Below, piece by piece: positions 5,003 to 22,295 of a stretch of DNA of 41,474 nt. The first letter of the stretch is position 1; the number at the start of each line of letters is the position of its first letter. This stretch comes from Candidatus Woesearchaeota archaeon CG10_big_fil_rev_8_21_14_0_10_44_13 (GTDB lineage Archaea > Nanobdellota > Nanobdellia > Woesearchaeales > UBA12501): NCBI GenBank assembly GCA_002762985.1, contig PCXZ01000028.1:10278-51751 (forward strand), written 5' to 3'. A program made the translations under genes and the position numbers. The notes beneath the pieces were generated by a model, which saw only the letters and a list, made by a program, of their open reading frames with translations, was not told where the DNA came from and did no database searches.

Positions 5003-7303
5003 TTACCCGAAATCAAAAACCAAAATTTCCTGTTCGCTGCCGCCGTATTCAGCAGTCTTCTTGTAGCCATAATTCTGGGTTATCGGCTGGGAGCTCCATA
5101 ATATGTCCCCTGACTCCGTGCTAATGCCATATTCAAGCTTGTACTCCAAGGCATCATCGTCAGGATCAGATGCAGGTTCCCATTTGACCACTGCTGACTT
5201 ATCATAGACTTCCCCTCCGTTAGGCTCTATAAGGAATGGTTCTGGTGCCTGAGGGGGAAGATTTCCTGTGACTATGAGGAGATTGCTTGATGGGACCACA
5301 GTGTTCGCTGATGCCGCTATGAAAAAATATTCCGGCTGGCCTATCTCTGTAGGTGAATATGAAGCATCATGGGTGACATATCTTGCGGGCCATTGGACTG
5401 ATGCTACATTATTGCTGTCAAATGATGCAGTCAATCCTATGTCCTCAACCACATCATCATTGACAAGATCGCCGAACCAGTCCATGAGCAGGGTATTGTC
5501 ATCTTCCCATATGTCGAAGGTTACGCTCTCGCCTTCACAATACCCCTTTCCGAATGCCATTAGGGCCACAGGCGTGCCGTCTGAAACTATAGTATCTGAC
5601 CATAGTGCAGTTGATATCTCACATCTGCAGTCCGGATCCTGAGAATCGATATAGCCGTCGCAGTCATTGTCAAATGTATCGCTGCAGCTTGTTTCTGAAG
5701 ATTCAGGAGGAGAGGGGGGAGTGCAGGTCTGGGGTACGCCGCTGATGCAATTATCCATCGTTACTTGGCAGAAACCCAGGCCGCATGTTGTCGAGCCTAA
5801 GTCTTCATCTGTCTGGCCGTCGCAGTCGTCATCAAGATTGTTGCAGGTCTCGGCCTGGGGATTTGCTTCACCGACGCATCCGCCCCACTGCCCGGTGTAA
5901 CCATAAGCAAGGCATACTGTCGTGCATTCGAATGGCACACCTCCGCATTCTATTGTTGAGCTAGTGCATACAGATGTCTGTTCGCATGTCTGTGTTCCTG
6001 CATTGCATTCGCCCACGCCTTCTGTCCCTGGCGCACCAGTATAACAGGATTGAGTAAGAGTATAATCTGTTGCTGAACCTGGTGTGTTGTCTGTATAGCC
6101 GTCGCAGTCATTGTCCAAGCCGTCGCAGATCTCTGGTGAGGAGGGTTTTGGCGTGCATGTCCCTGACCATTGGCCGCCGACACAGGTCTGGTCGGCAGTA
6201 TTCGCGCATTCTGTCAATCCGCAGCTTATTGTCCTAGTCTGGCCATCGATGCATTCGCAGCCTTCATCTATCTCAGTGTCGCAGTCATTATCGATGCCGT
6301 CGCATATTTCCATGGCAGAAGCGCAGCTTCCTGCGCTGCATGATGTTCCAGCAGAGCATGTTCCTGAACATGCTAATGTTGTGTAAGTGCAGCTCCCTGC
6401 ACCATTGCAATGATAATCATTTAATGTCCCTGTTCTTGCGCAAGTCCCGCTGCAGCCAGTATAAGTGCAGGCTGTGTCTGTTCCGCATTGTGTTGTCGAT
6501 GGCATGTTCGTAGAAGCGCATCCTACTCCCTCATTGCAGTAATAATCCTTGCATTGCATATCTGTGCCGCATGAAGTTAAGTCTAAGTCACCAATAGTTG
6601 AGAGGTAATCGGTTTTTCCGTCGCAGTTATTGTCTTTCCCATCGCATATCTCTGCAGCTCCTGGCTTTATTGCTGGATCATTGTCATTGCAGTCCTTGTT
6701 TGCTCCTGCAACAGCCCCGCAATAGCCGTCCCTGTCATTGTCAAAGCAATAGCATCCACTGCCGGATGGTCCAATGTTGCATCCTGTGCCAGTAGGGCAA
6801 CTACCGCTAGGTTGTGAACTATAACAGATACCAAAAGACTCAACCAAGCATTCAGAAGATCCCATGATCATTCCAGAATTGGCAGACAATTGGCCAAGTT
6901 GTCTTGTATAACTCCCGCTGCAACCGCACTGGCTACCGCATGACTTGACTAACACCAGGGCATGGTCGCACTGGCTGTCCCCATTGCTATCATCACAATA
7001 ACATTTGCCTGATGCACACTCGCTCCCGGAAGGGCAACTATCAGCGGGAATTTGACTTGTACAGGAACTAAAAGAGTAGACCGGGCAGGCCCAGTTTCCC
7101 TGGCAGCCGCAGAAAGATGGACAATCCTTTTTCATTATCACTGCTGCATCAACAGGCTGCAATGTTCCTGCAAAAACAGCAAGAGCAAGCAGCATGGCAA
7201 TGAATATAGCAAGGAATGATTTCAATTTTTTTGTTTTTGTTCCGGGAATTACCATTCTGTTATCCTTATCCATTCCCGTCCAAACCTTCCTTTTCCATGC
7301 CAT
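5003..7303 (-). CDS. Secreted Cys-rich protein with MopE-like motifs and C-terminal Ig/FN3-like domain
   Basis: 766 aa. A hydrophobic signal segment spans residues 29-45 (core KSFLAIFIAMLLALAVFAG). An internal start at Met11 or Met17 would give a more usual signal peptide. The first ATG directly abuts the TAG of the upstream pilin-like gene. Residues 60-190 contain two related Cys-rich repeats (FCGCQG and QCGCSG). Five MopE-like motifs follow, at about 186-233, 332-349, 391-406, 485-500 and 539-560 (for example EICDGIDNDCD). Residues 570-680 are an uncharacterised beta-rich segment. Residues 684-766 resemble a single FN3/Ig-like domain (LIEPNGGEVYDKSAVVKW). The protein is predicted extracellular. 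The Asp-rich motifs suggest divalent-metal-stabilised folds, but the ligand is unknown. Neighbours place it in the pilus/adhesin block. Confidence 0.75.
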   Translation of the reverse strand: MAWKRKVWTGMDKDNRMVIPGTKTKKLKSFLAIFIAMLLALAVFAGTLQPVDAAVIMKKDCPSFCGCQGNWACPVYSFSSCTSQIPADSCPSGSECASGKCYCDDSNGDSQCDHALVLVKSCGSQCGCSGSYTRQLGQLSANSGMIMGSSECLVESFGICYSSQPSGSCPTGTGCNIGPSGSGCYCFDNDRDGYCGAVAGANKDCNDNDPAIKPGAAEICDGKDNNCDGKTDYLSTIGDLDLTSCGTDMQCKDYYCNEGVGCASTNMPSTTQCGTDTACTYTGCSGTCARTGTLNDYHCNGAGSCTYTTLACSGTCSAGTSCSAGSCASAMEICDGIDNDCDTEIDEGCECIDGQTRTISCGLTECANTADQTCVGGQWSGTCTPKPSSPEICDGLDNDCDGYTDNTPGSATDYTLTQSCYTGAPGTEGVGECNAGTQTCEQTSVCTSSTIECGGVPFECTTVCLAYGYTGQWGGCVGEANPQAETCNNLDDDCDGQTDEDLGSTTCGLGFCQVTMDNCISGVPQTCTPPSPPESSETSCSDTFDNDCDGYIDSQDPDCRCEISTALWSDTIVSDGTPVALMAFGKGYCEGESVTFDIWEDDNTLLMDWFGDLVNDDVVEDIGLTASFDSNNVASVQWPARYVTHDASYSPTEIGQPEYFFIAASANTVVPSSNLLIVTGNLPPQAPEPFLIEPNGGEVYDKSAVVKWEPASDPDDDALEYKLEYGISTESGDILWSSQPITQNYGYKKTAEYGGSEQEILVFDFG

Positions 7304-7756
7304 CTACTTCTTCACCCCGCATGGCACAGTATTCACGCTGGCATCCTTGTTGCCCAGCGCATTGTATTCCACAATTATAGGGTCCCCATTCAGGTCCAGT
7401 ATAGGGCTGCCGTACTCATCTACCTGGTATCCCTTGATAGGTATGAGATTCCCGTTCTCATCCTCAAAGTATACGCAGAACTTTTCATAATTGAACTCTG
7501 TCTTAAGCGCGTCATAATTGCCGACTATCTGCTTCAGCTTTGAGTCATCCACCTTGTTCCCTTTTATGAAAGAGACAGGGCTCTCTGTGCTCAGCAGCTT
7601 TGTTATCTTCTCCCCTTTCTCAGAAAGCATCCTGTTGTCCTGGGATTTTGACATCGATACCATTATCCCCGTGAACATTATGAAGACAGCGACGAATATG
7701 AAGACTGCAACTAGAATGTCTATTGACCATGTCTGCGCTTTATTGATAAGACACAC
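7304..7756 (-). CDS. Minor pilin-like protein (GTG start)
   Basis: 150 aa. The N-terminus MCLINKAQTWSIDIL leads into a 20-residue hydrophobic helix (ILVAVFIFVAVFIMF). This fits a prepilin cut after Ala7, giving Q at +1 and Asp at +6 rather than the usual Glu at +5. The remainder is a small mixed domain containing FCVYFEDENGNLIPI and a C-terminal PCGVKK. The start codon is GTG: an in-frame TAG lies four codons upstream and no ATG occurs nearby. The stop directly precedes the next gene's ATG, so the two are translationally linked. A TATA box sits at 7805-7816. It is probably a minor subunit or initiator of the pilus-like structure. Confidence 0.7.
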   Translation of the reverse strand: MCLINKAQTWSIDILVAVFIFVAVFIMFTGIMVSMSKSQDNRMLSEKGEKITKLLSTESPVSFIKGNKVDDSKLKQIVGNYDALKTEFNYEKFCVYFEDENGNLIPIKGYQVDEYGSPILDLNGDPIIVEYNALGNKDASVNTVPCGVKK

Positions 7757-7804
7757 CTCTTTTCCCTATTTGAACCCGTTTTTAGGCTTATTACTGAAAA
7801 ATGA

Positions 7805-7816
7805 TATATAAATATT
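7805..7816 (-). promoter_or_regulatory. TATA box for the minor pilin and downstream surface genes
   Basis: TATATAAATATT; predicts a start site near 7783 and a leader of about 27 nt. It may drive the run of genes from 7756 down to 488. Confidence 0.6.
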
Positions 7817-7872
7817 GTGCTTTTGATGCTTAAAAACAGCATGATAAATGATGATTATGCCAAGATAGAAAT

Positions 7873-9930
7873 TCACTGGCCGACTGCCTTGTAGTTCACC
7901 TCAAATGTCCCTGTGCCAGGATATTGGCCAGGCAGGATGTTCAGGCGGCTGTGTTTGTCAGGGATCGCATCATCCTGCACGCTGAGATAGATATCATAAT
8001 TATTTATGGTCTCATAATCAGCTGTAAGGTAATAGTTCGATTTTGCCTGGTCAAGTATCCTGAACTGATCGATTATGGATTGTGCATTGTCCACACCAAT
8101 CTCTGTAGGAGGGTATGAGCCCACATAAAAAGCGTCTCCTGCGATGAGATTGATATTCACATCTTCCTCAGAATCTGCCGCCTGGTTCCCGTCTATGAAC
8201 ATCCTCATCTTCGCATCGCTCTTGCCTGAATTCAGGTTCTCCCATGTCAGAGCGACGAAATGCCATCTATCCCCTAATGCCAATGAAGTCGAGTCCACTG
8301 CGAATGTGCCTGAAGGGGATTTTATAAGGAAAGTCAGGGAGTTGCCGAGCCTTGAGAGGGATAAACTTCCAGAGCTCCCCTGCAGATAGAAAAGGTATTG
8401 TATGCTGCCTGTATTAAGGACGGGCTTGAACCAGAACTCGACAGTGCCATTGCCAGTATCAAGTATGCCGGCCGCATCATAAGCAAGCTTGTCTGCGGCG
8501 TCAAGCTTCACTCCGCTGCCATACCTCGCATCGGCTATCTCGGCCCCTCCTGAAAGCGGAAGGGGCATGCCTCCTTTTTCGGCAGCAGTGCTTGAATCAT
8601 AGCTCGCATAGAACAATGTATTCTTGTCTGCCGCATAAGAGCTGTACTTTGCAAAATCCTTGTCTATATCAAAACATGTGATGTAGATATTGTCGTAAGG
8701 TGAGCTGTCTGGATCGCATGATGAGTCATAATCCCTGAACTCGACATCCTTCATTGTCTCATAACCGTTGTCTTTCTGCTTTATCGTCGCCTTCACAAAA
8801 TTCACGCCGGAATCGTCAATAACATTGGCAGATATCCTTGCCTTGTCCATATAATTGAACTCGTTGAGCGGGAGCTCGTCGAAATATATGAAAACATCAA
8901 CACTCTTTATTTCAGGAGGTGAGATATCGGCCACTGTCGCGAATGTGTTTTTCTTCTCATTGTTGATATAGACTGGGATATCATCTTCATCCGAATACCT
9001 CTGAGATGCCCCTTTCTGGTCGCCTACATCTATCCTGAAGCAGTATGCTGTCTCGGCAATCAGGTCAGTGAGCCTTATCCTGAAATTTCTCATGAGGCTA
9101 TTCTCCTTGGCCTCCTGGACCATGTTTTCCCATTGAGGGCATACCTCATTGTTTAGGATCCCATATCTTACTGCTGCCTTCGCAGATTCGTTTGTCGTGA
9201 AGACAAGTGTTGCGGACTTGTCGGCGATATCAAGAACTCCGACTGCAGGTGAATAAGGCCTTGACTCATCAGGCTCTATCCCCGGAGGGGGATTGCACCA
9301 GTCGAAATTGACGCATCCTTTCATGCATTCGTCTACAGGCGGATTCAGTGCCGGCTCGAATGCAAGGTCAAAATCATTCTCTTTCGTGCATATGTTGTCA
9401 GGATTGCCCATGTACAGCTCGCCAAAGGCATAATTCCCTTGCTGGCAATAGCACCTTCCACCCAGGCAGTAGCTTTTCGGGCCCACTGTTGTCACCTTAT
9501 TGCATGGGTCATCCCCATTCAGCACAGTTATCTTGCCTTGCGTCTTTTTCACCTGGTTTATGCCCTTGTAGACTGCATTCGATGCGCCTTCAAGGGTTAC
9601 AGAGACCTGCTGGTTATACAGCTTATCCATATACATAAGGGTAAGGATATTCTTGCCTGGACCGATGTTGTTTATGTGGATCTCGTAAGGGTTCCCCTCG
9701 ACATATTCGGGCATTGTGAAATTCCTGGTATAGCCGTCCATAGACTGCTGCGCAAGCTCGAGCTCTGCAACCACTGTGTCCATGATGTCCTGCGCAACCT
9801 TGTCCCTCCTCGCATCGTTCATGTCTATTATATTCTCGCTTGTGATGGCGAAGAAGACTACGAAGATGCCCATCATCACAGAAGCGAGCACTATGAATTC
9901 GAATGCTGCCTGGGATTTCATGTTTCGCAT
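7873..9930 (-). CDS. Large pilin-like protein with FN3-like and LamG-like domains
   Basis: About 685 aa from the ATG at 9930. A TTG at 9945 would add 5 residues and an ATG at 9921 would remove 3; class III leaders are short, so either ATG is plausible. The N-terminus MKSQAAFEF plus a hydrophobic helix (IVLASVMMGIFVVFF) gives a cleavage site after Ser with Glu at +5. Numbering from the TTG, residues about 145-215 are Cys-rich, about 230-335 look like an FN3-type domain (VGVLDIADKSATLVFTT) and about 444-637 look like a LamG/concanavalin-type lectin domain (TVEFWFKPVLNTG ... WHFVALTW ... FIDGNQA). It lies 3-18 nt after the 455-aa pilin gene and is likely co-transcribed with it. The inferred role is a surface adhesin displayed through a pilin stalk, with glycan binding suggested by the LamG-like fold. 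Confidence 0.75.
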   Translation of the reverse strand: MRNMKSQAAFEFIVLASVMMGIFVVFFAITSENIIDMNDARRDKVAQDIMDTVVAELELAQQSMDGYTRNFTMPEYVEGNPYEIHINNIGPGKNILTLMYMDKLYNQQVSVTLEGASNAVYKGINQVKKTQGKITVLNGDDPCNKVTTVGPKSYCLGGRCYCQQGNYAFGELYMGNPDNICTKENDFDLAFEPALNPPVDECMKGCVNFDWCNPPPGIEPDESRPYSPAVGVLDIADKSATLVFTTNESAKAAVRYGILNNEVCPQWENMVQEAKENSLMRNFRIRLTDLIAETAYCFRIDVGDQKGASQRYSDEDDIPVYINNEKKNTFATVADISPPEIKSVDVFIYFDELPLNEFNYMDKARISANVIDDSGVNFVKATIKQKDNGYETMKDVEFRDYDSSCDPDSSPYDNIYITCFDIDKDFAKYSSYAADKNTLFYASYDSSTAAEKGGMPLPLSGGAEIADARYGSGVKLDAADKLAYDAAGILDTGNGTVEFWFKPVLNTGSIQYLFYLQGSSGSLSLSRLGNSLTFLIKSPSGTFAVDSTSLALGDRWHFVALTWENLNSGKSDAKMRMFIDGNQAADSEEDVNINLIAGDAFYVGSYPPTEIGVDNAQSIIDQFRILDQAKSNYYLTADYETINNYDIYLSVQDDAIPDKHSRLNILPGQYPGTGTFEVNYKAVGQ

Positions 9931-9948
9931 TTTCTTGCATCTCAAAGT

Positions 9949-11316
9949 TTATTGAGGCTTGTCATACACTTCCACATAAGAGCCTTTGTTCACGAACCTG
10001 TATTCAACAGTGCATGAGCTGGGATCGATAGGGCAATTATAAGGTATAGTGAATGTCTTTCCTGAAGGCACATTCACTGAGACAAAGGAATCGAATGTTA
10101 TCTCCTGCGGCATCTCCTCATCATCGATGTATGAGACTGTTATCGAGGTTCCTCCAAGAGAGATATCATCGATCAGCTTGATCCCGTCACGGTAAGGGAA
10201 TGTCAGCTGCCTGTCGAGATAAGCGCCTTCGCTATATATTGCATAAGGCCCTTCAATTTCAAGCTTCCCCCTAATGTAGCCTGTTGATCTTGATATGTCC
10301 CCGATTATCCAGTTTGTTCTGTCTCCAGCAAGGATGCTGTAAGGGATTATATGGGTTACTGTCTGCCCGCCTGCGATTATCTTTATGCCTATGCTGTTCC
10401 CATTCACTTCATTGATGTCGGCTGAGAGCGCAGATCCTGTATTAAGGCCGGTCATTAAAGGGGATTTTGAACTTGATTCTGACCCGGATGAATCATAATA
10501 ACTGAATGCAGGCTGTTGAGGCGATAGATCTTTCAGGTAGTACAAGTAAAGGTTGCCTGATTCTTCCAGCGTAATCCCTACCGAAGGCAAGGGGTTCAGC
10601 AAAGCCACATTATCGTTATCTATGCCTCTGCGAAGGTTGCTTGAGCCTATGAGGATGTTAAGATTCCCGTTAAGCTCTTCAAGGTCTATGCTCGCTGAAA
10701 GGCCCTTGTCAAAGCTCTCATAAGCATATGCTATGTCCTGAGGGTTCTCCTCTTTGAATACTCCTTCCTTTATCAGCTCCTGTTGTGAAGCCCTTGCATA
10801 ATCCATCAATATCCTCACAAAATCATTATAGATTGCGCTTAAGATGACGGCTTCCTCATACCTTCCTGAGTATAACACGACATCGCTCTCTCTTGCCTGG
10901 ACTGTTATGCTGTGCCTTCCGGGAGCATAGTCAATAGGTATCAGAAGGCTGTCCATCTTCACATTGGAGAAAGAGATGATCTCTTTTTGGGAATAATAAT
11001 CGCCTGTCCTGAACACCATCTCGTTCTTGTTTGGGGAAACCTCGATATCGATGACTCCTGCAGGCATATCGAACTTCACTGTCCTTTTCGAAGGCTCCCC
11101 GAGATAGAACACCTCCTCTGCTGCAGAAGTCAGGTCATCGCCTATCTTCACGAGCTTTGATTCTGTCACCCCTTCGCTGACCTCAGAGGAATAGCTGTAG
11201 AAGATATAGACTGCAGGCACCATTATCGCGAAAACAAGCCCCACTACCATGAGGTATTCTACAGAAGCCTGGGCTGAAGAGAATGCTGGAGCTTTTGCTA
11301 GACCTCTTTTTTTCAT
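9949..11316 (-). CDS. Large type IV pilin-like protein (class III signal peptide)
   Basis: 455 aa. The leader MKKRGLAKAPAFSSA is followed by QASVEYLMVVG and a hydrophobic helix. Predicted cleavage is after Ala15, giving Q at +1 and Glu at +5, the archaeal prepilin peptidase pattern. Residues 16-150 form a module also present in the 1752-aa protein and more weakly in the 525-aa protein (AAEEVFYLGEPSKRTVKFDMP). The remaining 300 residues are beta-rich with few cysteines and no recognised domain. A TATA box at 11339-11346 is centred 26-27 nt before the ATG, indicating a leaderless mRNA. The gene leads a likely operon with the LamG-containing pilin at 7873. It could be a major or accessory subunit of the fibre. 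Confidence 0.75.
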   Translation of the reverse strand: MKKRGLAKAPAFSSAQASVEYLMVVGLVFAIMVPAVYIFYSYSSEVSEGVTESKLVKIGDDLTSAAEEVFYLGEPSKRTVKFDMPAGVIDIEVSPNKNEMVFRTGDYYSQKEIISFSNVKMDSLLIPIDYAPGRHSITVQARESDVVLYSGRYEEAVILSAIYNDFVRILMDYARASQQELIKEGVFKEENPQDIAYAYESFDKGLSASIDLEELNGNLNILIGSSNLRRGIDNDNVALLNPLPSVGITLEESGNLYLYYLKDLSPQQPAFSYYDSSGSESSSKSPLMTGLNTGSALSADINEVNGNSIGIKIIAGGQTVTHIIPYSILAGDRTNWIIGDISRSTGYIRGKLEIEGPYAIYSEGAYLDRQLTFPYRDGIKLIDDISLGGTSITVSYIDDEEMPQEITFDSFVSVNVPSGKTFTIPYNCPIDPSSCTVEYRFVNKGSYVEVYDKPQ

Positions 11317-11338
11317 ATGGTAGAATTAGCATAATGCA

Positions 11339-11346
11339 TATATAAA
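11339..11346 (-). promoter_or_regulatory. TATA box, leaderless, 455-aa pilin
   Basis: TTTATATA on the minus strand, centred 26-27 nt before the ATG at 11316. Confidence 0.7.
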
Positions 11347-11406
11347 GTTTTGGCTCGGGATATCCTTTCTCTGCCTTCCCCTAGCCCTGGGCCCCAGCAA
11401 TATGCA

Positions 11407-14400
11407 TCAGCAGTTCTTGTAGTAGATATCCTGATAATAATGTGTCAAACCTATTATCGTGCTGCTGTCTATCGCCGGAGATCTTCCAGGCACTATGCTG
11501 ACTTCAGGGTCGCTTGTAGAGAGGTCTCTTCCATAGACAATATACGCTGCAGGAGAACAGATGCTGCAGGTATTATAGCTCCATACTGCCTTGCTGCCAT
11601 AGATCTTCGGATTAGTTGCACCATAATCCAATGTGGATATCTGCGTCACTGTGTCCGAAGCGATATCATAAAGGAATATGGGGTATTTTGTCGATGGGCT
11701 TGTGATCGTCCCTGCATAGGCTATCTTGCCGCCATATACAGAAGGGCGGTTATTTGAAGCGGATGTCGCGGGAATTTTTGTTTTTGCATCTGCTGCGAGG
11801 CATCCTCCTGGCTGGCCGTTTTTTGCGAGGTCGCAGAAATAGATGTCGCCTGATAGCGTCCATGCGATGATGTTCCCATTGGAGTCAGGGTCCGCCTTCC
11901 ATCCTATCATATCACTTATCTGGGTCTTGGTGTCTAATGCGAGGCATCCTCCTGGCTGGCCGTTTTTTGCGAGGTCGCACATGTAGACATCAAGGGCGCT
12001 TGAACCCCGTTTATGAGACCAAATTATGAGATTCCCGTCTATTGAGGGGTTGAAATCCAGATTACTGTCTTCTGTAACCCTTGTCTTCAGGTCATTCTCA
12101 AGGCATCCACCATCCTGGCCGTTTTTTGCGAGGTCGCACATGTATATCTCGCCTGAAGTCTCAGCCCCGGTCCCGTCGCTCCAGACAATCACGTTCCCTG
12201 AGATCCTTGTGACAACTGGATTGTTGTCAGTGACTGCTGCCACTCTTGTCTTCAGGTCATTCTCAAGGCATCCACCATCCTGGCCGTTTTTTGCGAGGTC
12301 GCACATATAGACTGCTGTAGCCGGATCAAGATGCCCTGCGAAATGATTCCATACGATGATGTTTCCGCTTATGTCAGGATTATAATTCTTTGAATCTGAT
12401 GTCAATTTTGTTGAAACGCCTATATCATTTATGCCATCGCAATTATAATCTCCCTGCACAAAGCATTTTGGCAGCTGCGGATAGGCTGCACCATCACAAT
12501 CCGGATTATCCCATCCCCCCAACACACATGTCCTTGTCCCTTTTGTGCACTGGCCTATGCCTGCATAGATTGAATAAAGAGGATCGTAGCAGCCTGCGGT
12601 CAATGGGGATGTTGTCGTCGGGATATTATCCATAATTGTGTCGCAATCATTGTCGAATCCATCGCATACTTCGGGTTTCCTGCTTGAGTATAATGAACCT
12701 GAAGAGCCAGTTGTTCCGGAATATATCCCGTAAAGCCTGCCGTTCCACTCTATTGAAGGGCCGTAATAATAATTCAAAGAGGGGTATATCTTCTCGTCCT
12801 GTCCTATCTTAAAACCGTCCTGATTGAGCCTTGCAAAGTAAAGATTGTAGGACACGCCTCCGACATCGTCCCGTTTGTCACCCCAGACGAGCGCATATTC
12901 CTTGAGGTCATTGTTCCATGCTAGCGAAACAGGAGCCCTTGGATCAGATAAGAATGAAGGTGTTATGTTGATATTAGACAGTTTCTTTTCGCCTGAGCTG
13001 CCGAATTTGGTGAAATATACCATGAATTTGTTCACTGAGCCCGTATTATAAGTGTCGTGCCATGCAAGGCCGTATTCTGATCCTGCCCACACAAGCGAGG
13101 GGGCAAAAGAGTTGAGGGAAGTTTCAGCTACCTTGATATAATCATTTGAATCGATTACGCTGTCGCCATTGACATCTGCCCTTGCGCCATACCCATCAAG
13201 TCTTGTGAAGAATATATCTGAATTTGATCCTGCCACCTCATCCCAGACAACACCATATCCCTGGCCGACCAATAAAAGATCGATTGCAGGGCCGCTCCAT
13301 CCTATGGCGAATGCGCTCTTAAGGGATATGTCAGATGTCACTTTCGTGCCGTAAGCATCGAGCCTTGCAAAGTAAAGATTGACTGTCAGGGAGGAAGTAG
13401 GGGCCTGCGTCCATAGCACGCCATATTCATTCCTGTTGGGATTCCAGACTATCGAGGCATCATAACAATATCCTCCTGTATTCGAAACTTTCTTGAAATC
13501 GCCTGTGTCTGCAAAATCAGGGCTTGTGCCATCGCCGTCAAGGTCAATCTCGTTTCCGTTCTCGTCTATCCTTGCAAAATAGACATTCCCGTCCCTGCTG
13601 TCGCACCATGCGAGGCCATACTCTTTCTGCGCAGGATTCAGCGCAAAAGATGTTGGTTTGCCGTTTGAATTGAAAACAGTACTTGAGACCAGGACCTTTA
13701 CGTCCTTGAAATCCAATTGTTTAGGCTTGCCGTCTGAATCTGCCAGGGAAAAATATAATTTCAGGTCTGACTGCCCCAGGAATGCAAATTCATTTTTTGC
13801 CGGGTTCCATATTGTATCTGACCACTTGCTTGTAGAGATAGGTATCGCTGCTCCTGTAATGCCTTTGCATGAAGGGTCTTCGCAATCCTTCAGTCCGTCG
13901 CAGTCATTGTCAAGGCTATCACCGCATATCTCTGTCTGCGGCTTGACTTCAGGCACGCATGTTCCCCATGCCCCTGAAGCGCAGAATCTCTTCGATGCAG
14001 AGCATATCCCTATATTCTCTGTGGATACCGATCCGGTGTAATATGAGCATTTATTCGAGAGGGTATCATCCCCTGATCCTGGATCATTGTCTATGCTTCC
14101 ATCACAGTTATTGTCTATGCCGTCGCATATCTCCGGGCCTATCATCCCCTCGAAATATGCCCCTGCAGAAGAATCGAAATTATCGTACCAAAATAAGCCA
14201 TAGCTTGGGCCGTTTGAGGCGATTGAAGGGGACCCTGCATCACCTGGATTTGCAGTTATCCTCTTCTCGCCCTTCACATAAGTTCCTGTAGAATCTACTC
14301 TTGCGAAGAATGTCTCGTAGCCCCCTGTCGAGACATATCTCCTGTCCAGCCACACAATGCCATACTCGCTGTTGAGGCCGTTCCATGCTATGGATGGGTT

Positions 14401-16665
14401 CTGTGCGCCATTAATTGTATCTAAGTTTGTCACTTTCATCTCCTTTAGCTTTATGCCTGAAGGGCTCATGCTTGAGAAGATTATGTCTTTTGTCAGGTCC
14501 CTCTTGTCGACCCATGCAAGGCCATATCCAGAACCGCTCCATGCGAGGCTCGGGCCGGCTTTGTAAGTCTGATCATTGTCGGATATCTTTGTCTCAGTCA
14601 GCTTAGTCCCGTCATTGTCAAGCCGCGAGAAATAGATCTTGTAGGTGTATGGCTGAGCTGAGGTCTGGGATTCCGACCATGAGATGCCATACTCTGAGCC
14701 TGTCCAGACAAAAGAAGGGCCGCTGTTCGCTCTCTGGGAGAATGACTCCCGGATTATAGTGCCTGCGTTCCATGTCACATCAGTTATTTTCGTGAAATAG
14801 ATGTCATAAGCCCATGAATTGACCCTGTCTTCTTTCCATGCGACACCATACTGGCTTCCTGACCATGCTATTGAAGGATTATAAGCGCCGTTATGCAGGG
14901 GCGTTATGAGCTCTACGCTGTCCATCAGCTTATTGCCGCTGCCGTCCATCCTTATGAAGAAGATCCTACTTCCAGTTGTTGTTTTCGGCCATACGACACC
15001 ATACTCTGAGCCTGTCCATGCTATGGCTGATCCTGGGTCAGATATGGTGCCTGTATCTATGACCACATCGCTGAGCAGGCTTCCGGAAGCATCGGCCCTT
15101 CCGAAATGCAGGGATTTGGCAGAGGATGCGCCTGTAAACCATAAGACGGCATATTCCCTAAGGTCAGCATTCCACATAGAATAGACGGATGTCCAATCAG
15201 GGGCGATTGCAAGATTCTTCCTTCCCACTCCCGTGCATTTCGGATCATCGCAGTCTGCAAGGCCATCGCAGTCATTGTCCATCCCATCATAGCAAACCTC
15301 AGGCTGCGCATAGGTCTCCTGGCTGCATAGGCCCCATTCAGGTATATCATTCTCGAACAGGCATTTCCTCTCTGACGCCTTGCATACAGATGTACCAGTA
15401 GGGGGAGCGCATGATTCTACAAGAGTGTAGTTCTGATTGGCATCAGGATTATTGTCAACATAGCTGTCGCAGTCATTGTCCAGGCCATCGCATAATTCAT
15501 CTGCTGCTTTTGTGAGATCAGGCTGGCTGCTGCATACCGATGAAAGCTTGTCTATGCTGCATATATTGCCGCCATCGACGGCGCAAAGCCCGTATCCTGC
15601 AAGGCATTTATCGCCTATTCCAAAACCTTCATCTTTCTGGGCATTGCAGTTGTTATCCAGCTCATCGCAATACTCGCTTGCATCAGGATGTGTGCATTTT
15701 GCGCATCCGCCATACAATGCATCATCGCAGGATATCTCGCTTAGGGGGAAGTTGCAGTCCGTTATTATGCTCGGGTCATCAAAGCAGTCATATTGGTTGT
15801 ATCTATCGTCGCCTGCCTCATCGCCGCATGCTGTGCTGTACAATACATTCCCATAGCCGTCCCCATCATTATCATGGCATATGGGCAACACTATGTCGAC
15901 AAATGTGCCCTTATAGATAAAATCGTATGTTTTTGTAATGTTCCTCACAATGCCTTTGGTGTTGGAATCCTCATCAATGAAACTATCCTGTGCTATCTTT
16001 GTGCCCATAGTATAAGTCGTGTCGGCGGGCTCTCCGTCAGAATACATCCGTAATGGGAAAGAATCGCTGGGAGAACCGAAAGATATCCCTATATCGACGA
16101 CAAGGCAGTCCGCAGGCACTATCAATCTCCTTGACCTGCTTATGTGATCCCTGAAGACCTCGCCCGCATATTCTTTTATCTGGCCTGAGATATAATACCC
16201 GCACCATTTGATCCTGGCTTCCTCATAATTCCCCCTATAAATGATAGAATAACCTGGTTTTGCTTCAACTATGAACTCTTTCTTGCCCTGCAGCAGGTCG
16301 CCAGGGATAAGATAGCTCCTTACTGGGACCTCTGAATAGCCGACTATCTCTTTTGAGTCGTTCTTATCTCCGTAAAGGAAGATGAGCTCCATCATGTTCT
16401 CAGAGACCTGGACATCATAAAGCCCGAAGGGCATCTCGAACGAGACAGTGGTCTTAGACGGCGCCCCTAAGTAATAGAATTCCTCTGCTGTCCTGACAAG
16501 CTCGTTGTTTATCCTCCCTAATTTCATGAAGGTGACTTCCTGGCCCATGTCAGTGGAATAGGTATAGAATATGTAGACCATGGGCAGGATTATGGCGAAA
16601 GCGATTCCGGCTACCATGAGGTACTCTACAGAAGCCTGTGCTGAACCATTGCCTCTTTTCACCAT
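11407..16665 (-). CDS. Giant 1752-aa pilin-adhesin with three predicted seven-bladed propellers
   Basis: The N-terminus MVKRGNGSA/QASVEYLMVAG with a hydrophobic helix is a class III prepilin leader (cut after Ala9, Glu at +5). Residues 10-150 match the pilin module of the 455-aa neighbour. MopE-like Asp/Cys motifs occur at about 263-345, 391-404, 457-477, 846-860, 913-933 and 1332-1347. Between them lie three blocks of seven blade motifs. Block 1, about 484-842: EYAVLW, EYGVVW, QYGVAW, EYGISW, GYGLAW, EYGIVW, SYGLFW. Block 2, about 938-1325: EFAFLG, EYGLAW, EYGVLW, GYGVVW, EYGLAW, EYALVW, LYGIYS. Block 3, about 1415-1752, is a different TolB-like type with repeated CDLAKNGQ(D/P)GGCL. The TATA box at 16688-16695 predicts a leaderless transcript. 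The inferred role is a pilus-tip or surface adhesin assembled by the machinery at 24623-28148; its ligand is unknown. Confidence 0.8.
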   Translation of the reverse strand: MVKRGNGSAQASVEYLMVAGIAFAIILPMVYIFYTYSTDMGQEVTFMKLGRINNELVRTAEEFYYLGAPSKTTVSFEMPFGLYDVQVSENMMELIFLYGDKNDSKEIVGYSEVPVRSYLIPGDLLQGKKEFIVEAKPGYSIIYRGNYEEARIKWCGYYISGQIKEYAGEVFRDHISRSRRLIVPADCLVVDIGISFGSPSDSFPLRMYSDGEPADTTYTMGTKIAQDSFIDEDSNTKGIVRNITKTYDFIYKGTFVDIVLPICHDNDGDGYGNVLYSTACGDEAGDDRYNQYDCFDDPSIITDCNFPLSEISCDDALYGGCAKCTHPDASEYCDELDNNCNAQKDEGFGIGDKCLAGYGLCAVDGGNICSIDKLSSVCSSQPDLTKAADELCDGLDNDCDSYVDNNPDANQNYTLVESCAPPTGTSVCKASERKCLFENDIPEWGLCSQETYAQPEVCYDGMDNDCDGLADCDDPKCTGVGRKNLAIAPDWTSVYSMWNADLREYAVLWFTGASSAKSLHFGRADASGSLLSDVVIDTGTISDPGSAIAWTGSEYGVVWPKTTTGSRIFFIRMDGSGNKLMDSVELITPLHNGAYNPSIAWSGSQYGVAWKEDRVNSWAYDIYFTKITDVTWNAGTIIRESFSQRANSGPSFVWTGSEYGISWSESQTSAQPYTYKIYFSRLDNDGTKLTETKISDNDQTYKAGPSLAWSGSGYGLAWVDKRDLTKDIIFSSMSPSGIKLKEMKVTNLDTINGAQNPSIAWNGLNSEYGIVWLDRRYVSTGGYETFFARVDSTGTYVKGEKRITANPGDAGSPSIASNGPSYGLFWYDNFDSSAGAYFEGMIGPEICDGIDNNCDGSIDNDPGSGDDTLSNKCSYYTGSVSTENIGICSASKRFCASGAWGTCVPEVKPQTEICGDSLDNDCDGLKDCEDPSCKGITGAAIPISTSKWSDTIWNPAKNEFAFLGQSDLKLYFSLADSDGKPKQLDFKDVKVLVSSTVFNSNGKPTSFALNPAQKEYGLAWCDSRDGNVYFARIDENGNEIDLDGDGTSPDFADTGDFKKVSNTGGYCYDASIVWNPNRNEYGVLWTQAPTSSLTVNLYFARLDAYGTKVTSDISLKSAFAIGWSGPAIDLLLVGQGYGVVWDEVAGSNSDIFFTRLDGYGARADVNGDSVIDSNDYIKVAETSLNSFAPSLVWAGSEYGLAWHDTYNTGSVNKFMVYFTKFGSSGEKKLSNINITPSFLSDPRAPVSLAWNNDLKEYALVWGDKRDDVGGVSYNLYFARLNQDGFKIGQDEKIYPSLNYYYGPSIEWNGRLYGIYSGTTGSSGSLYSSRKPEVCDGFDNDCDTIMDNIPTTTSPLTAGCYDPLYSIYAGIGQCTKGTRTCVLGGWDNPDCDGAAYPQLPKCFVQGDYNCDGINDIGVSTKLTSDSKNYNPDISGNIIVWNHFAGHLDPATAVYMCDLAKNGQDGGCLENDLKTRVAAVTDNNPVVTRISGNVIVWSDGTGAETSGEIYMCDLAKNGQDGGCLENDLKTRVTEDSNLDFNPSIDGNLIIWSHKRGSSALDVYMCDLAKNGQPGGCLALDTKTQISDMIGWKADPDSNGNIIAWTLSGDIYFCDLAKNGQPGGCLAADAKTKIPATSASNNRPSVYGGKIAYAGTITSPSTKYPIFLYDIASDTVTQISTLDYGATNPKIYGSKAVWSYNTCSICSPAAYIVYGRDLSTSDPEVSIVPGRSPAIDSSTIIGLTHYYQDIYYKNC
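12080..12141 (-). repeat. 62-bp perfect repeat within the 1752-aa gene, copy 1
   Basis: Identical to 12245-12306; the period is 165 bp, exactly 55 codons. It encodes the MCDLAKNGQDGGCLENDLKT segment of the third propeller. Two shorter, diverged relatives occur at about 11795-11835 and 11939-11981. Confidence 0.92.
12245..12306 (-). repeat. 62-bp perfect repeat within the 1752-aa gene, copy 2
   Basis: Identical to 12080-12141 and in the same reading frame; an adjacent blade of the third propeller. Confidence 0.92.
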
Positions 16666-16687
16666 AAAAGTTATTTATCGTTTGGGA

Positions 16688-16695
16688 TTTATAAA
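16688..16695 (-). promoter_or_regulatory. TATA box, leaderless, 1752-aa pilin-adhesin
   Basis: TTTATAAA, centred 26-27 nt before the ATG at 16665. Confidence 0.7.
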
Positions 16696-16721
16696 GGTTT
16701 TGAGGAGAAAATCATCTGCCT

Positions 16722-17363
16722 TCATCTTGTCTCGACTGCAATGCCCGAGACTTCACCGCCAGAAGCATGCGTGAATTGCGAGGCCCCTGCAAATGCATAA
16801 ACAAGATCGATCTGCTCTTTTAACCTGTCGCCTTTGTTTATGCCATCGCAGTTGGCTAATACGATGATTGCGGGTTTTCCTGCTGCCCAGACGCCTGTGC
16901 AGTCGACCGGCAGAAGATTACAGATGTTGTTTGTTGTAAGATCAGATGGTTTCAGGAATTTAAGCCTTGGATCGGTGACAGCATCCAATGTCCCATCAAG
17001 TACGCCCGCCATAACCTGCCCAGGAGTCAGGCCTTCTGCGACTGCGTTTGCAATGATGTTGCAGCTTGTTATATCACCGCTTATTGTTGTATCGATCTGA
17101 CCTATGGGCCTGTCGAGGTTATTGAGCAGCACGATCCAGACCATATCCTGGTTGGATCCAGCAGTGAATGACCTGTCAGAGATAACAAAATTATCGCACT
17201 TGCCGAAGGTGCCGAAATAGCATTTGTCCGGCAGAAGCTTTGCAGGATTCAATACCCCGAAATAAGCCAATGCCCCTATCACTACAAGGACTACAAGGAT
17301 TGCCCAGCCGTAAGTCAGGAGGAACTCCATCGCTGCCTGGGATCTTTTTGGTTTTGGGTGCAT
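16722..17363 (-). CDS. Type IV pilin, class III signal peptide
   Basis: 213 aa. The leader MHPKPKRS is followed by QAAMEFLLTYGWAILVVL, a textbook archaeal prepilin N-terminus with Glu at +5. Residues 9-48 are nearly identical to those of the 151-aa pilin at 18897-19352, both running to NPAKLLPDKC, after which the sequences diverge. The C-terminal domain contains five cysteines after the shared one, and a conserved-looking DLVYAFAGASQFTHASGGEVSG end. A TATA-like box at 17423-17430 overlaps the 3' end of the upstream small membrane gene and would give a leader of about 36 nt. No strong ribosome-binding site is seen. It is probably a structural subunit. The prepilin peptidase that would process it is not in this window. 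Confidence 0.85.
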   Translation of the reverse strand: MHPKPKRSQAAMEFLLTYGWAILVVLVVIGALAYFGVLNPAKLLPDKCYFGTFGKCDNFVISDRSFTAGSNQDMVWIVLLNNLDRPIGQIDTTISGDITSCNIIANAVAEGLTPGQVMAGVLDGTLDAVTDPRLKFLKPSDLTTNNICNLLPVDCTGVWAAGKPAIIVLANCDGINKGDRLKEQIDLVYAFAGASQFTHASGGEVSGIAVETR

Positions 17364-17420
17364 AGGGTTGCCTTGTTGGAGGGTGATTTGATATGGATAA
17401 GAGAATGTTTGTGATTTGGA

Positions 17421-17708
17421 TTATTTAAATATTATGATTAGAAAAACAGCCAGGGTGATGATTAAGGCATATAAAACTGCTTTTTTCATATCCATGCTCC
17501 TGCTTTCTTCATAAAAGTTATAGACAAAAAGAGGGGATGCTATAAGCAGCAGATAAACTCGTCTCAATAATAACAGATAAGGGATAATCCAGATGATCAG
17601 ACAGCAGAACAGGCATAAAAGGAGAAGGAGATTCTTCTCATTTTTTTGCTGATCTTCAAGTTTAGTCTCTTTGACCATCGTTTTTTCCTTATTTGGTCTT
17701 TTCCTCAT
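17421..17708 (-). CDS. Small hypothetical membrane protein
   Basis: 95 aa. A charged 24-residue N-terminus rich in Lys, Glu and Gln is followed by two or three hydrophobic helices: about 26-46 (Leu/Cys-rich), 49-63 and 75-94. No family is recognised. The ATG lies 3 nt beyond the stop of the GT-C-like gene, so the two form a tight two-gene unit. The pair is inserted between two pilin genes, which suggests but does not prove a role in pilin modification or assembly. Confidence 0.6.
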   Translation of the reverse strand: MRKRPNKEKTMVKETKLEDQQKNEKNLLLLLCLFCCLIIWIIPYLLLLRRVYLLLIASPLFVYNFYEESRSMDMKKAVLYALIITLAVFLIIIFK

Positions 17709-17711
17709 TTT

Positions 17712-18824
17712 TTATTTCCCCATGACGTATTCGACTGAATGGACATAAAACTGGAAATGCGCGGCTTTTATCACAAAGATTATGTTCCCTATGACGAGAA
17801 GGGCCATGATCAGCTTCATGACCCAGTGCTTATCCCTGAAATTAGTGAAGGTATAAGCTGCAACCAAGGCAAGGCTCGGAGCGCCATAGCTGGCCATGCG
17901 GACATAAAGATTTGAATCCATGAAGAGGGGAAGAAATGCAAGGATTTGAGGCACAAAGATCCATGAGTTAAGAATAGGTGAATCCTTGTTCTTCCTGCAA
18001 AAAATCAAAATGCCAAAAATCGCTAAGATAATGAGGCAACTGCCTGCCCCCTCAAGATAAAAACCAAGGCGTGGAAAGACTACCTGCCCGTTTATTTGCA
18101 AAAAACTTGATGAGATGATGGAATAATGGTTTGATATCCAATCAGGGTTTATCAAAAATATGCTGGATAATGGGATAAATAATATAAGGAAGAAACTCCA
18201 GTAATATTTTTTTAGTTCTGGCGGGATTATCCTCCGGTTTTTTATTGCCAAGTATAAAAAGACAAAGACAAAAAGAAAAACAAAGATGAAAACCGTCACT
18301 TCATGGGTGATTATCTGCGGCAACACCACTAACGGGGCGAGTATGTGATGGCCTTTCAACATCAAGAGTACATAAACTGAAAGGGCCAATATGCCAAACT
18401 CAGTTGAATACATGCCCCCAGCCAATATCCTTGCAATATCAAGCCCGCCAAAGACATAAAACAATGAAACAAGCTTTGGATCAATATGGACATGCTCAGC
18501 TACCATCCATAAGGGGATCAAAGTGAGTGCTGAGATGATGCAGCCTGTGATTATTGTCCCGAGCAGAGGGCTTAAACCGAACCATGTAAAAAAGACCATC
18601 ATCGGAGCCATGACGAAAGCTGAAAATCTTGTATGGGGAGATATTCTGCCTTCCAAAAAATCGTAATTCATCCTCAAATAATTATAATGGTCAGTAAGGG
18701 TGTTATTCATGGGTTCGTACATTGTTGCCAGAAAAACCCTCAATACAAGGGCAAGCAGGAAGAAGAAGATAAGCCATTTGACGTTCTCTTTTTTGATCCA
18801 CCTCTCTTTTTTCTGATTTTTCAT
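17712..18824 (-). CDS. Polytopic membrane protein, GT-C glycosyltransferase-like
   Basis: 370 aa with about nine hydrophobic helices. After the first helix (residues 16-34) comes an extracytoplasmic-type loop with acidic residues (TMYEPMNNTLTDHYNYLRMN), then RISPHTRFSAFVMAPM. This layout resembles the GT-C fold of STT3/PMT-type enzymes, where acidic residues in the first loop bind lipid-linked sugar. It is shorter than a typical oligosaccharyltransferase and shows no WWDYG-like motif, so it could equally be an unrelated polytopic protein. A TATA box at 18847-18854 centred 26-27 nt before the ATG predicts a leaderless start. Its position between two pilin genes makes pilin or surface glycosylation an attractive but unproven role. 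Confidence 0.55.
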   Translation of the reverse strand: MKNQKKERWIKKENVKWLIFFFLLALVLRVFLATMYEPMNNTLTDHYNYLRMNYDFLEGRISPHTRFSAFVMAPMMVFFTWFGLSPLLGTIITGCIISALTLIPLWMVAEHVHIDPKLVSLFYVFGGLDIARILAGGMYSTEFGILALSVYVLLMLKGHHILAPLVVLPQIITHEVTVFIFVFLFVFVFLYLAIKNRRIIPPELKKYYWSFFLILFIPLSSIFLINPDWISNHYSIISSSFLQINGQVVFPRLGFYLEGAGSCLIILAIFGILIFCRKNKDSPILNSWIFVPQILAFLPLFMDSNLYVRMASYGAPSLALVAAYTFTNFRDKHWVMKLIMALLVIGNIIFVIKAAHFQFYVHSVEYVMGK

Positions 18825-18846
18825 AGGGGCACAGAATCAAAAGGTG

Positions 18847-18854
18847 TTTAAAAA
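18847..18854 (-). promoter_or_regulatory. TATA box, leaderless, GT-C-like gene
   Basis: TTTTTAAA on the minus strand, centred 26-27 nt before the ATG at 18824. Confidence 0.6.
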
Positions 18855-18865
18855 GGTTATTGAAG

Positions 18866-18896
18866 AAAAAATAAAAGAAAAAGAATAAAAAAAGGT
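18866..18896 (-). terminator. Oligo-T terminator after the 151-aa pilin
   Basis: Directly after the stop codon the minus strand reads as several T runs (T7, then T5, T4 and T6) separated by short breaks, the usual archaeal termination signal. Confidence 0.65.
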
Positions 18897-19352
18897 TTAC
18901 TGGACTGTTCCTGAGATATCCACTGATAAGGTGTGTGAAAACGTTGAATCGCCGCCAGTGTAATATACAATGTCTAGCGTTCCCTTGCCCTTATCTCCTG
19001 GTGTGAAAGTAGCGCCACTTGCTACAAAGGTTATTGCTTCTCCAGATTTCCATACTGTACCGGAAGCAGGCGCAGTTAATGTTATTGCAGTCCCTGCTGA
19101 AGGTGTGAACGTTGTTGAACTTATCGTAACCGACTGCCCCATGCCGTTGATCAACTTAACAGTAGGCCCTCCTGCATTCATAACAAAATCACTGCATGTG
19201 AAACCTGCAGTCGCTGTGCATTTGTCTGGCAACAATTTTGCCGGATTCAATACACCGAAATATGCCAATGCTCCTATGACCACTAGGACAACCAGTATCG
19301 CCCAGCCATAAGTCATCAAGAATTCCATGGCAGCTTGTGCTTTCTTAGCCAT
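18897..19352 (-). CDS. Type IV pilin, probable major subunit
   Basis: 151 aa. The leader MAKKA is followed by QAAMEFLMTYGWAILVVL, with predicted cleavage after Ala5 and Glu at +5. The hydrophobic helix runs into the shared NPAKLLPDKC motif, then a compact beta-rich, Thr/Gly-rich domain with two further nearby features: a second Cys (FTCSDF) and an ending of SVDISGTVQ. It has the best expression signals of the block: a ribosome-binding site GAGGTGA (19357-19363) six bases from the ATG, a TATA box at 19408-19420, and an oligo-T terminator directly after the stop. Small size, strong signals and monocistronic layout suggest the main structural pilin. It diverges from the 525-aa pilin gene that starts the assembly operon. 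Confidence 0.88.
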   Translation of the reverse strand: MAKKAQAAMEFLMTYGWAILVVLVVIGALAYFGVLNPAKLLPDKCTATAGFTCSDFVMNAGGPTVKLINGMGQSVTISSTTFTPSAGTAITLTAPASGTVWKSGEAITFVASGATFTPGDKGKGTLDIVYYTGGDSTFSHTLSVDISGTVQ

Positions 19353-19679: not shown

Positions 19680-21257
19680 ATGGGCAGTAATTGCATTTCT
19701 AGAGATACAAGATCCCAGGTGAGCCTCGAATATCTAATGGTAGTAGGCATACTCCTTGTCATAATGGTCCCCATATTCTATTATGCTGTTACAGAATCAA
19801 CGTCCCAGATAAGGATCAACCAGGCAGAAGATACTGTCAATAGCCTAGCGAAGGCTGCAGACTCTGTCTATGCCTTGGGGCCCGGAAGCAGGGATTATGT
19901 GGTGGTAACAATACCTTCGGGTGTCACAGGATCCTATGTGAATGAGAGCGAGGTTCTACTTGCGATGGACATATCAGGCACGAGTATAGATATTATAGGG
20001 TATTCCCGTGCAAGGATGGTGGGGAAACTCCCTGCAGAAGCAGGATCATACCAGATACCTGTTGAGATGCTTGAATCTGGCATTGTGCAGATAGGAGAAG
20101 GCAATGACACTCTGCCCCCATCAATAATATACGCTTATCCAAGCGGCAGGATAACATTCAGTGACATAACCTTAAAGGTGAACACGAATGAGCCTGCATC
20201 ATGCAGATATGATGATATTGATATGGCATACGAGACAATGCAGCAGCATCTCCAGGGAAGCCTGATGAGCCATGAGAGCTATCTGGGGACATTGAGCGAA
20301 GGGAACCATGTATATTACGCAAGATGCAAGGACAGCGCGGGCAATCTGATGACTGGCTCATCAGTAATAAACTTCACTATCAACACGACAGTGATCTCCG
20401 GCCAGACCGGCAATGCCACGAATGACACTGTTGAACACAATCCGCCGATAATCACCCTTGTCTCGCCTGCAGACGGCTATATAGATAATGAGGGCATAGT
20501 GCTTTTCAGGTTCGACGTGAGCGATGAGTCTGTCGTCGCTTTCTGCGAGCTCATAATGAATGATGCCATCAAGACGACTGCGACAAGCATAAGCAAGATC
20601 CAGACGAACAACATAACGAAAAGCGGCCTGGATTACGGCAGTTACAACTGGAGCATAAACTGCACTGACCAGTACGGCAACAAAGGCACAAGCTCAAGAA
20701 GGGCCATAACCATAAACTACACGCAGGACCATGATGCACCTATAGTATTCCTTATGGCGCCTGCAGACAACACGATTAGGAATTACTGGCTGATAAGATT
20801 CTCTTACAACGCGAGTGATGCAACATCTGCCATAAGCTACTGCACACTGCACATGAACGGGACCCTTGACACAGGCGGGACGATCTCGTGGAATGTAGTC
20901 GATGATATCGTAGCTGAGAACAACGCAGAGAGCATAACCATCCCTCTTTTCAGGGCGAATTACACATGGATGATGAGCTGCACAGACAACAGCTACAATG
21001 CGAACGAGGGTTATTCTGAAACAAGGAGCCTGAGGGTGAATATCACTGCAGGGGAGGATGCTTTCGTGAACAGCTGCGCAGGATGGTGCGGGCTGCAGGG
21101 ACTGAGCACAGGCAGGTGTGATAACAGCGAGACTAGATGCGCAAATGACTGCGGATTGCCGTACAGCTCAAATCACAACTGCTATGCGGGCAGCTCTGTC
21201 TCAGCGCAATACTGCCTTGGCGGCTCAGAATCCGACACCTGCTGCTGCATACTCTAG
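19680..21257 (+). CDS. Pilin-like protein with Ig-like repeats and Cys-rich C-terminus
   Basis: 525 aa. The leader MGSNCISRDTRS is followed by QVSLEYLMVVGILLVIMV, with cleavage after Ser12 and Glu at +5. Residues 13-145 are a divergent copy of the pilin module in the 455- and 1752-aa proteins (AADSVYALGPGSRDYVVVTIP). Three Ig-like domains follow at about 145-235, 253-347 and 352-455; the latter two open with PPIITLVSPADG and APIVFLMAPADN. The last 60 residues are Cys-rich and end DTCCCIL. Many N-x-S/T sites occur (for example NATNDT). A TATA box (19637-19646) and a GAGGTG site at 19670-19675 precede the ATG. It is first in the operon that leads to the secretion ATPase. Confidence 0.8.
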   Translation: MGSNCISRDTRSQVSLEYLMVVGILLVIMVPIFYYAVTESTSQIRINQAEDTVNSLAKAADSVYALGPGSRDYVVVTIPSGVTGSYVNESEVLLAMDISGTSIDIIGYSRARMVGKLPAEAGSYQIPVEMLESGIVQIGEGNDTLPPSIIYAYPSGRITFSDITLKVNTNEPASCRYDDIDMAYETMQQHLQGSLMSHESYLGTLSEGNHVYYARCKDSAGNLMTGSSVINFTINTTVISGQTGNATNDTVEHNPPIITLVSPADGYIDNEGIVLFRFDVSDESVVAFCELIMNDAIKTTATSISKIQTNNITKSGLDYGSYNWSINCTDQYGNKGTSSRRAITINYTQDHDAPIVFLMAPADNTIRNYWLIRFSYNASDATSAISYCTLHMNGTLDTGGTISWNVVDDIVAENNAESITIPLFRANYTWMMSCTDNSYNANEGYSETRSLRVNITAGEDAFVNSCAGWCGLQGLSTGRCDNSETRCANDCGLPYSSNHNCYAGSSVSAQYCLGGSESDTCCCIL

Positions 21258-21309
21258 ACTATGCAAGCTTAGATGATGCAAGGATTATGATCCATATATG
21301 ATCAGATGA

Positions 21310-21729
21310 ATGGGCTTGAAGATGAAATATCCTAAAAGCGCGAAGAAATCCCAGGCGAGCATGGAGGTTGTGGCTGCCGTAGGCATAATCACGATAATAT
21401 TCATCTTCATGTCGTTCTTCGCCTATGACATAAACAGGGACAGGCAGTCTGCTGAAGAGAATTCCAACCTGCAGAGCCTCTGCCTGAAGATATCCGGCAT
21501 CGTCTCGCAATTGTACCTCTCAAGCCCCGGCACAGAGGTTGTCTTGAAGCTCGACAATGAGATGACAGTAAGTTCAGGGAGGACGATATCGATAATCTCC
21601 GAGAACATCGGATCCAGCTGCGTATCGAAGACAATACTGACGAATGGCACAAGCAACAGCTTCAGAATAGGGAAAGGGAATTCCATGTTCAGGAATGTCG
21701 ATGGGGCTGTTGTCGTGCAGGAGATCTAA
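21310..21729 (+). CDS. Minor pilin-like protein
   Basis: 139 aa. The basic leader MGLKMKYPKSAKKS is followed by QASMEVVAAVG and a hydrophobic helix (IITIIFIFMSFFAY), with Glu at +5. An internal ATG at Met5 (21322) would shorten the leader. The C-terminal domain is about 95 residues with two cysteines, similar in size to archaeal minor pilins. It starts 52 nt after the 525-aa pilin and precedes three further pilin-like genes in the same direction, so it is probably a minor subunit produced with the assembly machinery. Confidence 0.72.
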   Translation: MGLKMKYPKSAKKSQASMEVVAAVGIITIIFIFMSFFAYDINRDRQSAEENSNLQSLCLKISGIVSQLYLSSPGTEVVLKLDNEMTVSSGRTISIISENIGSSCVSKTILTNGTSNSFRIGKGNSMFRNVDGAVVVQEI

Positions 21730-21743
21730 GGCCAGGATGGGTC

Positions 21744-22262: not shown

Positions 22263-22295
22263 CTGGAGGGTATGGCAGGATGCAATGCATGATGA

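Follow-up and report, generated by a model that had tools for sequence, protein, structure and literature searches.

A stretch of 41,474 nt on contig PCXZ01000028.1 of Candidatus Woesearchaeota archaeon CG10_big_fil_rev_8_21_14_0_10_44_13 (the window, analysed here as a whole) contains an intact open reading frame at positions 11407-16665 that encodes a protein of 1752 aa (P0001), more than ten times the usual size of a pilus subunit. The preliminary description of this DNA had reported the same frame, to which we add that it lies on the minus strand. Its product, a giant modular pilin, consists of a pilin module, Cys-rich MopE-type linkers and three blocks of seven blades, and its gene resides within a complete type IV filament locus. 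The re-derived borders of the blocks agree with those given earlier to within about 10 residues. There is no sign that the gene arose by misassembly or by a recent foreign insertion, as the frame is unbroken and the GC content throughout (0.47-0.49) equals that of the neighbouring sequence. A scan of genome contigs with the whole protein detected no relative, and comparison with the PDB by sequence returned chance matches only. The PQQ_2 family was matched solely on another contig of the genome.

The giant gene belongs to a minus-strand set of pilin genes (7304-19352), which runs on into contig C23, to the left of the window. The next gene downstream encodes a sister pilin of 455 aa (9949-11316) and is followed by that for a second modular pilin, of 690 aa (7873-9945), with a QAAFEF leader and a lectin-like Laminin_G_3 (LamG) domain (PF13385, E 9e-15). 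The 690-aa protein also contains a weak fibronectin-like stretch. Inspection of leaders further identified a minor pilin-like protein of 150 aa (7304-7756; QTWSIDIL, Asp at +6), a pilin of 213 aa (16722-17363; QAAMEFLLTYGWAI) and a pilin of 151 aa that might be the major subunit (18897-19352; QAAMEFLMTYGWAI), all on the same strand. Two Sec-type secreted proteins are encoded on this strand as well, one of 766 aa with MopE repeats (5003-7303) and one of 1359 aa (917-4996) that combines MopE repeats, a seven-bladed propeller of the giant's family and DUF4215 repeats, as judged from family and blade-profile matches. Behind its propeller, the 1359-aa protein carries five myxobacterial-type Cys-rich repeats (TIGR02232, DUF4215). 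The plus strand holds a divergent second set of pilins, recognised by their leaders (525, 139, 172, 143 and 298 aa; 19680-23605), and behind it the genes for an assembly ATPase (T2SSE; 24545-26221; PF00437, E 6e-35) and two platform proteins (T2SSF; 26218-27099 and 27174-28148; PF00482, E 1e-17 and 3e-19). Contig C13 of the same genome encodes a prepilin peptidase bearing the GxGD motif; an assembly ATPase, platform proteins and a prepilin peptidase are thus all present.

Both pilin sets present their leader types in the same order, namely Glu5, Glu5 (VEYLM; QAAFEF/QASMEV), Asp6, Asp6 and no acid, which may reflect the order of assembly of a priming complex. Because the bacterial pilins that start the tip are without Glu5 (PMC9934059), the two sets may each represent a tip or priming set. 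The pairing of leader types extends beyond this genome: the QAAFEF pilin module occurs in 187 of 288 genomes, and among the best matches listed, a biased sample, its gene directly follows that of a VEYLM-type pilin in 55 of 63 genomes. In a relative (G007), LamG is likewise present on a QAAFEF-type pilin (E 4e-18).

The first 155 residues of the giant protein (16201-16665, minus strand) constitute the pilin module, in which homology and modelling indicate a leader, a putative cleavage site between A9 and Q10, a hydrophobic alpha1 and six beta-strands. The N-terminus has a basic start and reads MVKRGNGSA up to the assumed cleavage site and QASVEYLMVAGIAFAIILP (beginning QASVEYLMV) beyond it, with a Glu at +5 and a hydrophobic window at residues 15-33 that is the only TM-like segment of the protein. 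In form, therefore, this sequence has the short positive n-region, the cut site preceding a hydrophobic alpha1 and the Glu5 of an archaeal pilin leader. The module is 50% identical to the N-terminus of the 455-aa neighbour, and a profile built from these two proteins detects homologs in 230 of the order's 353 genomes; almost all of these stand alone as proteins of 140-200 aa, and others occur in the wider class. AlphaFold models were computed for residues 1-852, using an alignment drawn from proteins of the window and of related loci, and for residues 932-1752. The model of the pilin module places a helix at residues 13-65 ahead of six strands, which is the lollipop form of pilins, at low to moderate confidence (pLDDT 46-77, mean 60). 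Confidence is low across residues 136-481, and is about 30 pLDDT for residues 156-310 (15736-16200, minus strand), a linker or domain that matches no family and bears a Dx[DN]xDG motif at residue 265. Leader form, homology to stand-alone pilins and the filament-locus context together support the N-terminal pilin proposed in the preliminary description. The class III nature of the leader is indicated by its motif, by homology and by context, whereas Pfam PF04021, a narrow model, has no match anywhere in the genome.

Blocks 1 and 2 correspond to propeller 1 (residues 485-847; 14125-15213) and propeller 2 (residues 936-1330; 12676-13860), both on the minus strand and each with seven blades, a count that agrees with the seven motifs per block noted earlier when degenerate copies are included. 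The strict motif [EGSQ]YG[VILF]x[WY] is found in 10 copies in the protein, compared with 0.04 expected in shuffled sequences and a maximum of two in 2000 shuffles. A blade profile derived from block 1 alone recovers all seven of its own blades and six of the seven in block 2; the reciprocal profile from block 2 recovers seven of seven in block 1, six of these at E 3e-5 to 2e-11, with a weak match to the remaining blade. Since the blades of each block are found by the profile of the other, the repeat lies far beyond chance, and no Pfam or NCBIfam model matches either block. AlphaFold models of propellers 1 and 2 (mean pLDDT 83 and 77, respectively) were compared with solved structures using Foldseek. 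Propeller 1 is matched best by CylK (E 6.7e-12), an enzyme that contains a propeller domain; next come TolB, aromatic amine dehydrogenase, neuraminidases and G-beta, among others, and the best solved propeller match to propeller 2 has E 3.6e-13. With seven repeats, about 28 strands and these fold matches, both blocks have the attributes of seven-bladed beta-propellers, and they are predicted to be closed rings, as judged from full-length fold matches rather than from coordinates.

Propeller 3 (residues 1417-1752; 11410-12417, minus strand) also comprises seven repeats, as had been counted in the preliminary description, although it belongs to a different family from blocks 1 and 2. Taken alone, block 3 matches the NCBIfam propeller repeat TIGR04275 with 97.3 bits against a cut-off of 85, and is thus a member of the Methanosarcina-type surface propellers, in this case attached behind a pilin and two other propellers. 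Its own alignment is devoid of relatives, and its model is poor (mean pLDDT 54). Of the three seven-bladed propellers originally proposed, the first two are consequently supported by model and fold match, and the third solely by its membership of TIGR04275. Blades 1-4 of propeller 3 have in common a near-identical segment with two Cys (CDLAKNGQDGGCL), which would be consistent with a recent internal duplication; the two Cys could perhaps form one disulphide per blade. Neither propeller 3 nor the blade profile detected a relative among viral contigs, and a viral source is therefore not supported.

Six stretches of MopE motif (PF11617, E 4e-19) lie before and between the propeller blocks, all encoded on the minus strand. 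They fall into a Cys-rich region 1 with several PF11617 stretches (residues 311-484; 15214-15735), linker 2 (residues 848-935; 13861-14124; PF11617 and NF033662) and linker 3 (residues 1331-1416; 12418-12675; PF11617). The strict calcium-type motif Dx[DN]xDG occurs six times in the protein, against 0.22 expected, with five copies in the MopE-type regions and adjoining linkers and one in a blade loop of propeller 2. The MopE motifs are therefore spacers by position, as had been suggested, but their several strict Dx[DN]xDG motifs indicate that they are probably more than this. A rod shape, which had also been suggested, is without support, and the MopE stretch preceding propeller 1 is modelled as a low-confidence linker. 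The copy in propeller 2 is the loop DLDGDG of blade 2 (residues 1041-1046; 13528-13545, minus strand), a sequence that conforms to the calcium blade, in which Dx[DN]xDG sits at the blade tip; such blades are known calcium loops of propellers, PilY1 included (PMC3123361). Blade 4 of the same propeller contains a Dockerin/EF-hand-like loop with the relaxed motif, DVNGDSVI (residues 1164-1171; 13153-13176, minus strand), at sub-threshold scores for PF00404 and PF00036. From these motifs, we infer that the propellers probably bind Ca2+.

The giant protein does not stand alone, since its pilin family includes other extended members with MopE repeats, TIG domains or a Kelch propeller. Among them is a pilin of 2792 aa (G303; L075:3895-12273) that contains 13 TIG domains together with a Kelch propeller and DUF1554, preceded in its genome by the gene for a 1060-aa TIG pilin, and several further long members carry MopE. 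A search for the original architecture in related genomes accordingly recovered other ectodomains on sister pilins, but the exact combination of pilin and three propellers in no other genome searched; it is represented by a single fragmented draft assembly of 36 contigs. The propeller family with the YGxxW motif is itself rare in the order (10 of 353 genomes at E 1e-10), and among the genomes of the order searched it is joined to a pilin only in the source genome. Where the data allowed the other propeller proteins of the order to be traced to their N-termini, taken for long frames as the first Met inside the retrieved DNA, none had a pilin leader. Within the source genome, the family recurs in a membrane-anchored protein encoded on contig C36 and in two Sec-type proteins from the giant's own gene cluster. 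Outside the order, the same seven-bladed family, which no Pfam model covers, occurs in deltaproteobacterial MAGs (L093-L097), where two of the proteins (L094, L095) likewise pair it with MopE-type repeats; unlike the giant, however, these are lipoproteins or Sec-type proteins of about 400-700 aa without a pilin.

In a tree of the pilin family with rows chosen partly for length, the extension label requires at least eight changes on supported branches. The giant's module pairs with that of its 455-aa neighbour with weak support (94/44), and this pairing would fit a scenario of tandem duplication in which modules were later captured from co-encoded secreted proteins. Two secreted proteins from separate genomes (G000:C23, L033:6261-10715; G001, L035:1698-6398) have a common C-terminal region and differ in their N-terminal part, where one has the YGxxW propeller and the other has RCC1-like repeats, an apparent module swap. 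Two other proteins (L034:3439-5664, and L103 of G223, 881 aa) combine a helical domain at the N-terminus with a single TM segment and, on the outside, one or two propellers of the giant's family, and are possibly surface sensors.

Pilins with grafted binding modules are already established in bacteria, and the architecture varies this kind rather than introducing a new principle: a 2021 survey of bacterial modular pilins covered more than 1200 proteins, with a most extreme multi-domain case of 860 residues (PMC8179133). The giant protein fits this definition, with domains that are not pilus-specific (the MopE repeats and three propellers) C-terminal of a pilin module, and what is new relative to the bacterial proteins is the archaeal host, the three propellers and the size. 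The modular pilins PilB (vWA) and PilC (lectin) of Streptococcus sanguinis, modelled at the filament tip (PMC8179133, PMC9934059), similarly unite a small N-terminal pilin module with a bulky C-terminal binding module and are encoded with minor pilins, but they are bacterial, have one module each and lack both the propeller triplet and the MopE linkers. PilC/PilY1 proteins (PF05567), exemplified by PilY1 with its calcium-binding propeller at the tip (PMC8833165, PMC3123361), also place a seven-bladed propeller with a calcium loop at a type IV pilus and work with minor pilins, and the function of PilY1 requires calcium binding (PMC8833165). PilY1 is nonetheless not a pilin and enters by a type I signal peptide, whereas the giant, which has no match to PF05567 and hence no place in that family, carries its propellers on a pilin with a pilin leader. 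By analogy, the giant may join in one chain the role that is divided in bacteria between PilC/PilY1 and minor pilins. Known archaeal type IV pilus loci, like the present one, group an ATPase, platform proteins, several minor pilins and large surface proteins, but their adhesins are PilY-like proteins with DUF2341 (PMC4858521), a domain absent here. A word search of that paper, which predates most Woesearchaeota genomes, found no pilin-propeller fusion, and the literature searched, which lies largely outside subscription journals, yielded no description of archaeal modular pilins with propellers.

We favour, as the somewhat more probable reading, that the giant protein belongs to an archaeal type IV filament as a modular minor pilin, probably located at the tip, where it acts as an adhesin or receptor. 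The lectin-like LamG domain on the next modular pilin and the other binding-type ectodomains of family members speak for this reading. The chain would be taken across the membrane by Sec, with alpha1 as its anchor, and would be cut between A9 and Q10 by the prepilin peptidase encoded elsewhere in the genome. Along with the LamG pilin and the minor pilins encoded nearby, its pilin module could then be built into the filament or its priming complex, leaving the protein at the filament tip with the propellers on the outer end as a binding head. This head would be stiffened by Ca2+ held in the Dx[DN]xDG loops and by disulphides within the MopE linkers, and its propellers would bind a ligand presented by a partner cell or a surface. 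The tip is the most likely position because the body of the filament could not accommodate about 1600 extracellular residues without clashes. As Glu5 is present, the giant is not obviously the first tip subunit, which in HIJK and PilA is without Glu5.

Archaea also have sugar-binding proteins with class III signal peptides, which in Sulfolobales form the bindosome. An assembly of this kind, named in the account of archaeal pili cited above (PMC4858521), provides a precedent for regarding the giant as a surface receptor or binding protein that stays tethered to the membrane, with or without processing, and captures ligands or nutrients without any filament, and the single N-terminal hydrophobic segment and very large ectodomain would suit such a role. 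We consider this unlikely, as hundreds of genomes encode stand-alone 140-aa pilins homologous to the pilin module, the gene lies within a minor-pilin cluster with an assembly ATPase and platform proteins, and no transporter genes are seen beside it. A minor pilin that decorates the filament along its length or at its base, rather than occupying the tip, appears quite improbable: Glu5 is kept, the head could loop out on the flexible MopE linker, which spans about 170 residues (pLDDT about 30), and archaeal minor pilins have been placed near the base, with decorations such as hooks allowed (PMC4858521), but the steric load of some 1600 residues weighs against this, and comparable bulky bacterial pilins model only at the tip (PMC9934059). 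That the propellers are enzymatic, for instance a glycan lyase or hydrolase for which the pilin is merely a carrier, is very improbable, since the enzymes among the fold matches (CylK, neuraminidases, GH43, lyases) are part of a spectrum spanning all propeller kinds at 8-14% identity, which carries no functional signal, and no enzyme family is matched by sequence.

With this locus, the principle of modular pilins, hitherto surveyed in bacteria, extends to archaea and to proteins of 1750-2800 residues, and the comparison with PilY1 suggests that propeller adhesins of the pilin-borne and PilY1 types solve the same task in two ways. Few candidate proteins have been named for partner recognition by host-dependent small archaea, and this locus offers one; a role in host contact has been proposed on other grounds for the type IV pilus loci of DPANN archaea, Woesearchaeota included (PMC11291902). 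Long VEYLM-type pilins encoded next to a QAAFEF-type pilin provide a rule by which further candidates may be found. We tentatively raise the possibility, itself doubtful at present, that a conserved minor-pilin operon of Woesearchaeota includes one pilin slot that serves as a platform for lineage-specific giant binding heads (propellers, TIG/Kelch, MopE), which would be exchanged with co-encoded secreted proteins and would furnish these presumed symbionts with a device for partner recognition, much like a swappable tail fibre.
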